Shown here one piece after another: positions 90-30,218 of a stretch of DNA of 32,682 bases (the first letter of the stretch is position 1; each line of letters opens with the position of its first letter). The stretch is from Gammaproteobacteria bacterium. GTDB taxonomy: Bacteria; Pseudomonadota; Gammaproteobacteria; Pseudomonadales; Azotimanducaceae. The notes under the pieces were generated by a model, which was not told the origin of the DNA, did not search any database, and saw nothing but the letters and a program-made list of their open reading frames with translations. The translations under genes were made by a program, and so were the position numbers. The stretch lies in contig JAPULC010000188.1 in the NCBI GenBank assembly GCA_027295305.1, positions 1 through 32,682 of the forward strand. The letters are read 5' to 3'.

Positions 90-268
90 GTGAAGATCTT
101 CGCACGGAGCCGGTGCCGGAGGTTCCCCGTGCTAGCGCTCGTCGGACATCCCTGCCCTCCTCGCTGGCGGACCGGGTACAGCTTGCATGTCCCTGTACGC
201 TGCACCCGCTACGCCCGCCCGAGAAACCTCCGGCACCCACTCCCCTTCATCACCAACGTAAACTGAAG
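90..268 (-). repeat. Structured intergenic repeat, family 1 copy 1 (homologous to 29012-29180 in opposite orientation)
   Basis: The reverse complement aligns with 29012-29180. Shared blocks are GGGGAGTGG.TGC.GGAGGTT, CAGCGAGGAGGrCAGGGAyGTCCGACGAGCG.TAGCACG and CTCCGTGCGA. Stem arms are at 106-129 and 220-243. Confidence 0.8.
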
Positions 269-13653: not shown

Positions 13654-13670
13654 CTCACGCCCCTCTATTT

Positions 13671-13837
13671 CTTGTCCCGAAATTCGCCGTCCGGGCGAAT
13701 TTCTTCCCACGCTGCGGCGAAGTAAATTCGCCTTCGCTCCCAGGCCCTTTCTTTTTGCTGCGCGTTCTTCCGCAAAGAGCTCCGCAAAAAAGCGGTCCTG
13801 CTTACGCCAGCCGCAAGGCTGGCGCGACATCCCTGTC
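13671..13837 (-). repeat. Intergenic repeat family 2, copy A (gpsA/htpG junction)
   Basis: Near-identical to 19313-19507 and 20861-21050 (GAAATTCGCC..GGGCGAATTTC, TGCTGCGCGTTCTTCCGCAAA, AGCGGTCCTGCTTACGCCAGCCGCAAGGCTGGCGCGACATCC). Lacks a 21-bp hairpin-containing segment present in B and C. Confidence 0.92.
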
Positions 13838-13863
13838 AAAGGAGCTTCGTTCTTGCCCAGGTT

Positions 13864-17854: not shown

Positions 17855-19507
<1,653 letters not shown>

Positions 19508-20836: not shown

Positions 20837-20860
20837 TCGTCCTCCTGACTAGTGGCCCTC

Positions 20861-21050
20861 TGGAAATTCGCCATCCGGGCGAATTTCCTCCGACGCTGCG
20901 GCGAACCAAGTTCGCCTTCATCTTGGTGGTCTCCCACCGCGCTCCCAGGCCTTTTCTTTTTGCTGCGCGTTCTTCCGCAAAAGCTCCGCAAAAAGCGGTC
21001 CTGCTTACGCCAGCCGCAAGGCTGGCGCGACATCCCCGTACCGGACGTCC
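20861..21050 (-). repeat. Intergenic repeat family 2, copy C (sucB/sucA junction)
   Basis: Aligned by eye to copies A and B over its full length. Confidence 0.92.
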
Positions 21051-28786: not shown

Positions 28787-28824
28787 CGTATCCCACGACG
28801 CGACAACACGCACGAAGCGGTCGC

Positions 28825-28948
28825 TGGAGTTTCTTCTCGCTACCGCCTGGCAGACGTCCTGTCTACCAGGCTGGCGAGCGGCGCCGCCTCATACGTCGCT
28901 CTTTAGGTAAGGAGCCGCGACGCCTCCACCCCGCCAAAAGAAACTCCA
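28825..28948. repeat. Nested inverted-repeat element downstream of gltA
   Basis: Outer perfect 11-bp arms TGGAGTTTCTT (28825-28835) / AAGAAACTCCA (28938-28948). Inner hairpin CTCGC..GCCTGG.AGAC-GTCCT-GTCT.CCAGGC..GCGAG. Also the GCGGCGCCGC palindrome at 28878-28887. Confidence 0.65.
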
Positions 28949-29011
28949 ACACCCGCTTCTGGGCACCGGCTCTCACTACGAAACGGTGACGGGAATCTGC
29001 CGTCTACGGTT

Positions 29012-29180
29012 CTTCAGTTCCACGTAGTGGTTTGGGGGAGTGGATGCAGGAGGTTCCTCGAGCGGCGTTTGAGGCGTCACGACACAGGGATGTAATGAGT
29101 GGCGCCGATACGCAGCGAGGAGGACAGGGACGTCCGACGAGCGGTAGCACGAGGGACCTCCTGCATCCGCTCCGTGCGAT
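29012..29180 (+). repeat. Structured intergenic repeat, family 1 copy 2
   Basis: Stem arms GGAGTGGATGCAGGAGGTTCCTCG (29037-29060) / CGAGGGACCTCCTGCATCCGCTCC (29150-29173). Internal hairpin GGCGTCAC/GTGGCGCC. Homologous to 90-268 (-). Confidence 0.8.
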
Positions 29181-30192: not shown

Positions 30193-30218
30193 AGAAATTC
30201 ACGTCCCTGTGAATTTCT
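30193..30218. repeat. Stem-loop related to the family-2 terminal hairpin
   Basis: AGAAATTCAC-GTCCCT-GTGAATTTCT, perfect 10-bp arms. The stem start GAAATTC and GTCC(C)T loop match copies A and A-prime. Confidence 0.65.

Follow-up and report, generated by a model that had tools for sequence, protein, structure and literature searches.

The current view is that a handful of dedicated sRNAs determine how much CsrA/RsmA is present. The sequence selected by CsrA in SELEX experiments follows the consensus RUACARGGAUGU, with ANGGAN loops (PMC3791407), and the RsmE-RsmZ structures have led to a rule for high-affinity binding, according to which an ANGGAX hexaloop is presented on a stem, a 5-nt loop lacking the N being weaker (PMC4005645). 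A further system to be considered is the TwoAYGGAY RNA (RF01731), which Rfam types as cis-regulatory and includes in clan CL00106. The function of this RNA is not established; CsrA binding has been proposed for it from motif matches in one study, which also mentions tandem G.A pairs (PMC4333381). The passages retrieved from the open-access literature contain no description of TwoAYGGAY as a dispersed, divergently paired repeat.

The DNA analysed here, referred to as the window, is a stretch of 32,682 nucleotides that corresponds to contig C99 of the assembly of a gammaproteobacterium of the Azotimanducaceae (the host; 4.12 Mb, 523 contigs, about 95% complete), and its genes include FimV, truA, gltA and an RpoS-like sigma factor. 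The original prediction, made from these letters alone, described two homologous copies of an intergenic element, each closed by a 24-bp stem. Both copies are present in the sequence and are found by BLASTN (29012-29180 on the plus strand and 90-268 on the minus strand). The stem of the former is made up of standard pairs throughout, positions 5 and 19 being G.U, the latter has G.U at positions 5, 20 and 22 and G.G at position 6, and positions 8 (G-C to A-T) and 12 (C-G to A-T) are altered on both arms between the two copies, all as it had been described. The observation was correct but understated, since it included neither a third copy nor the two-hairpin junction fold, the GGA loops and the resemblance to TwoAYGGAY. 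The features of the three copies are collected in Table 1.

Table 1. Element copies in the window and their structural parts
Feature	Position	Strand	Remark
Element copy, subtype A (copy 2 of the original prediction)	29035..29179	+	covariance model 158.6 bits, E 1.3e-28
Element copy, subtype B, divergent partner of the 29035..29179 copy	28808..28961	-	covariance model 132.8 bits
Element copy, subtype A (copy 1 of the original prediction)	100..245	-	covariance model 135.7 bits
Spacer between the divergent pair, 73 nt	28962..29034	.	
P1, 5' arm of the 24-bp closing stem	29037..29060	+	
P1, 3' arm of the 24-bp closing stem	29150..29173	+	
P2 arm, apical hairpin ACAGGGATGT at 29084-29093, loop AGGGAU on C-G	29073..29106	+	
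P3 hairpin GGAC[AGGGAC]GTCC, CsrA-type hexaloop	29122..29135	+	
P3 hairpin of the subtype B copy, GCCTGGTAGAC[AGGAC]GTCTGCCAGGC, GGA pentaloop	28845..28871	-	
P2 apical hairpin of the 100..245 copy, GTAC[AGGGAC]ATGC	185..198	-	position counted from the sequence
P3 hairpin of the 100..245 copy, GGGC[AGGGAT]GTCC	144..157	-	

The search for more copies with BLASTN and a covariance model, which had been proposed as a check, yielded 21 or more full copies from the host genome. Each is a folded RNA unit of about 150 bases; they are scattered over at least 14 contigs and fall into three subtypes (A, B and C) differing in stem sequence. Thus, of the suggestion that the element is mobile or dispersed, dispersal is borne out and mobility is not, there being neither a linked transposase nor a conserved terminal repeat in the stems. 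Taking into account that the copies often sit at contig ends, the repeat probably broke the assembly, and the true copy number is likely to exceed 21. Some of these ends (L014 at the end of C34, L038/L034 at the ends of C207/C74) look chimeric, with a strand switch inside the palindrome or a flanking gene repeated in inverted order, and are probably assembly artefacts at the repeat. Copies of subtypes A and B form head-to-head pairs, with 5' ends about 75-85 nt apart, in the window (28808/29035) and on contigs C512, C457, C269 and C34, the partner on C34 being truncated; some copies have related flanks. Their neighbours are ordinary genes, such as truA and gltA. Many copies are intergenic and near gene 3' ends, and most are found either downstream of a gene or in the gap between convergent genes, at a distance from ribosome-binding sites. 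In 15 of 19 copies (hand tally) the gene on the 3' side runs on the opposite strand, an orientation bias seen in the host only and not in its relatives. A small hairpin (CTACGT..CTTCAG..ACGTAG) also precedes subtype A copies, for example at 29000-29025 of the window, with compensatory changes (CTACAT/ATGTAG) noted by eye.

The long closing stem P1, of at least 24 bp, encloses two hairpin arms, P2 and P3, in a three-way junction. The fold energies on the element strand are -86 and -94 kcal/mol for the two subtype A copies of the window, with z = -8.9 and -7.7 against dinucleotide shuffles, and the complement gives weaker values (-6.9 and -4.7). In the alignment of the 21 host copies, 26 of the 40 pairs show changes on both sides and 95.9% of the pair cells are standard pairs, figures to be taken as support and not as a formal R-scape test, since the structure was derived from one member of the alignment, although the alignment itself had not been adjusted to it, and since related copies inflate the counts. 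None of 500 shuffles attains any of the covariation measures, and shifting the pairing by one column lowers the paired cells to about 36%. G.U pairs outnumber A.C by 80 to 4 over all stems and by 56 to 2 in P1. Neither an absence of covariation nor A.C mismatches as common as G.U, the outcomes that the original prediction had named as speaking against it, was found in these copies. Because of the covarying pairs, the proportion of paired cells, the G.U:A.C ratio and the strand asymmetry of the fold, its claim that the element functions as RNA in the given orientation is strongly supported.

The P2 stem covaries and contains an asymmetric internal loop, which could accommodate tandem G.A pairs, its tip being UAC[AGGGAU]GUA or a variant. 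This tip is swapped in 11 of the 21 host copies for another hairpin without a canonical site; the substitute is a CTCTTTATATGGAAAGAG-like hairpin in many copies (L002, L003, L004, L006 and others). P3 appears as GAC[AGGGAY]GUC, GAC[AUGGAU]GUC and variants, with a pentaloop, GAC[AGGAC]GUC, in subtype B, and an extra CCCCAGCGC...GCGCTGGGG hairpin is inserted 3' of P3 in several A copies. The element is therefore modular, with hairpin exchange. In 18 of the 21 copies P3 has a GGA site of canonical form in a hexa- or pentaloop, and in 20 it contains GGA; both its stem (ACA..UGU, GCA..UGC) and the base before GGA (G, U or A) vary while GGA stays. C-G-closed A(N)GGAN loops are thus nearly always present in P3 and, in about half of the copies, in P2.

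These A(N)GGAN loops closed by C-G match both the CsrA SELEX consensus and the high-affinity rule, and the element carries candidate CsrA/RsmA sites in the form of an ANGGAN hexaloop, or of a smaller GGA loop, set immediately on a stem closed by C-G. Hairpins with at least 7 Watson-Crick pairs were counted in a 563-kb sample of the host genome in which contigs carrying the element are over-represented, and ANGGA was the commonest hexaloop pattern (20 of 206 hexaloops, against 0.8 expected). When each distinct stem of this sample was counted once, ANGGAN accounted for 9 of 74 hexaloops, with 0.29 expected (p 2e-11), and all 14 intergenic ANGGAN hexaloops on stems of at least 6 bp were closed by C-G. 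The GGA pentaloops are less enriched once repeats are collapsed (8 of 117 stems, against 1.8 expected), so the argument rests on the hexaloops. Little or no excess of ANGGAN hexaloops was seen in two other genomes of the host's family or in E. coli K-12; an order-level relative (G511) has 4 among 72, with 0.28 expected. Two csrA genes of ordinary sequence are present in the host, both scoring above the Pfam cut-off, and one of them lies just downstream of an aspartokinase-like gene.

Apart from the element, the window contains a second dispersed intergenic repeat family (13669-13844, 19305-19507 and 20846-21047, minus strand) with hairpins of 10-11 bp, GAAATTCGCC[CGGAY or AGGAC]GGCGAATTTC, one copy having GACAGGGATGTC; this hairpin recurs many times in the 563-kb sample. 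An isolated perfect hairpin with a CsrA-type hexaloop, AGAAATTCAC[AGGGAC]GTGAATTTCT, is located at 30193-30218 (minus strand), and the same stem is found elsewhere in the genome.

Outside the host, the covariance model built from its elements (R2) matches one element in each of two genomes, G122 with 52 bits and G511 with 49 bits (E 9e-8), the best score in 660 kb of control DNA being 18 bits. The elements of G511 also form divergent pairs, have inner hairpins of the AUGGAU, ACGGAU and AUGGAC types, and match RF01731 weakly (31.7 bits in one search, E 0.004 in another; the gathering cut-off is 43 bits); it was the match of the L078 elements, below this cut-off, that pointed to the family. The Rfam search that had been proposed as a check gave zero matches in the window at gathering level, and RF01731 itself does not match the host elements even at E 10, nor anything in the whole host genome. 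Copies below threshold are found in seven other genomes of the host's family, and within the order 73 of 392 genomes give RF01731 matches, 32 of them above the cut-off, often in multiple copies, up to at least seven per genome. Among the matches listed, the 10 pairs lying less than 500 nt apart comprise 8 divergent and 2 tandem ones, with no convergent pair. When 14 elements from relatives are aligned, every fully invariant column falls within the two CANGGANG motifs. In the TwoAYGGAY-like elements of relatives (L184-L193), P1 is long and nearly perfect, and its sequence bears no relation from one copy to the next, even within one genome. R2 does not reach most RF01731 matches, whereas the G511 elements match both models and can be regarded as a bridge between the host family and TwoAYGGAY, although not as proof, since so simple an architecture could converge. 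A DNA pattern scan of all the named genomes gave four unrelated matches, about the number expected by chance, which indicates that the host family is narrow in sequence. A match in G006 was rejected, as it consists of 29 bases inside an apparent coding sequence. BLASTN of the host and G511 elements found none in phages and plasmids, nor did a pattern search of viral contigs.

Judging from sequence, the element may best be described as a lineage-specific, amplified and diverged TwoAYGGAY-like structured RNA and a candidate binder of CsrA, to which we give a probability of about 0.6. Because the tips of its hairpins correspond to the binding sequence of the global regulator CsrA/RsmA, it probably soaks up or tethers this protein. 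Each copy would be transcribed from its own promoter or within the 3' region of a neighbouring gene, and one CsrA dimer would clamp both loops, that of P3 and, where present, that of P2, with the long P1 stem giving stability; as the P2 apex is replaced in 11 of the 21 copies, bridging of two sites would not be universal. Collectively, the many dispersed copies would form a distributed sink and so reduce the amount of free CsrA; each might also tether CsrA to its own transcript. Unsystematic inspection identified neither a promoter nor an intrinsic terminator of the element. Two facts weigh on the other side: P1 is far longer than CsrA binding requires, which counts against the CsrA reading, and the lack of any RF01731 match to the host elements counts against kinship with TwoAYGGAY.

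The same loops would equally serve a cis-acting CsrA site, with each copy controlling its own transcript and no global sink being formed; the adjoining of ordinary genes (truA, gltA) and the cis-regulatory type given to TwoAYGGAY in Rfam agree with this proposal, which is nonetheless doubtful, since most copies are placed 3' of a gene or between convergent genes, where ribosome-binding sites are not close by. That placement, the opposite-strand neighbours on the 3' side and the great stability of the stems would instead be expected of hairpins comparable to BIME/REP, which shield mRNA from 3' exonucleases or end transcription and in which the GGA loops are incidental. This role leaves unexplained why the GGA loops are kept while the stems change and why the enrichment is specific to the loop; moreover, nearly all the copies inspected lack a T-run after the stem, and the orientation bias is absent in relatives, all of which makes it unlikely.

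Dispersal, divergent pairs of REPIN-like arrangement and related flanks could also be the traces of a mobile DNA element (MITE or REPIN-like) with hairpins in single-stranded DNA, where G.T would mimic the G.U bias. However, the stems vary in sequence and yet stay complementary, so that no terminal repeat is conserved, and the loops bear the motif of an RNA-binding protein. A MITE with a conserved terminal inverted repeat was rejected for this reason, the stem sequence differing between subtypes with compensation. As for an intact Y1 transposase (RAYT, PF01797), the only match in the host assembly, about 95% complete, is weak and has an internal stop, and we regard a mobile DNA element as quite improbable. 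An integron attC site and a group II intron were considered as well and not retained. Template switching (quasi-palindrome correction) might produce covariation in place of selection, as the near-perfect, copy-specific P1 stems of relatives could suggest, but correction would remove G.U and A.C alike, whereas the host P1 keeps the former in great excess; P2 and P3 covary as well and the loops are conserved, and this origin is very improbable. A broader proposal is that these are order-wide, dispersed, divergently paired and self-amplifying repeats, selfish or domesticated, which titrate CsrA/RsmA, lineage-specific versions such as that of the host having arisen and spread independently of TwoAYGGAY; it can be put forward only tentatively.

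If tens of dispersed repeats bind CsrA, as the candidate-binder reading would have it, the effective pool of this protein would depend on the repeat content and on which genes are transcribed. At the same time, TwoAYGGAY gains a genome-wide context of multiple copies and divergent pairs, and the CsrA proposal becomes directly testable with existing RsmA CLIP data.

Regarding the known systems, the element resembles CsrB/CsrC and RsmX/Y/Z in its A(N)GGAN hairpin loops on C-G and in a probable titration of CsrA. Each of those RNAs, however, is the product of one gene whose regulation is known and carries several to many sites, whereas the element is a dispersed repeat of about 150 nt with at most about two sites, and the Rfam models of CsrB/RsmY/RsmZ-type sRNAs match neither the window nor the elements. 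It shares with REP, BIME and REPIN sequences the condition of dispersed intergenic palindromes in inverted pairs, but it is much larger, biased to one RNA strand, and provided with covarying stems and GGA loops, in a host in which no intact RAYT was found. From TwoAYGGAY it differs in its loops, mostly AGGGAY instead of AYGGAY, in the spacing of the GGA motifs (about 41 nt versus 28), in a longer P2, and in a P1 common to the members of a subtype. As to the two AYGGAY hairpins of that family, two GGA loops occur in about half of the host copies, with some AUGGAU in P3. Both have a long outer stem around the two hairpins, A-N-GGA-Y loops and multiple copies, often, in the order, as divergent pairs, which is compatible with a putative common descent. 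Since RF01731 misses the host elements and R2 misses most RF01731 matches, with G511 bridging them, the element is called TwoAYGGAY-like and not a member of that family.
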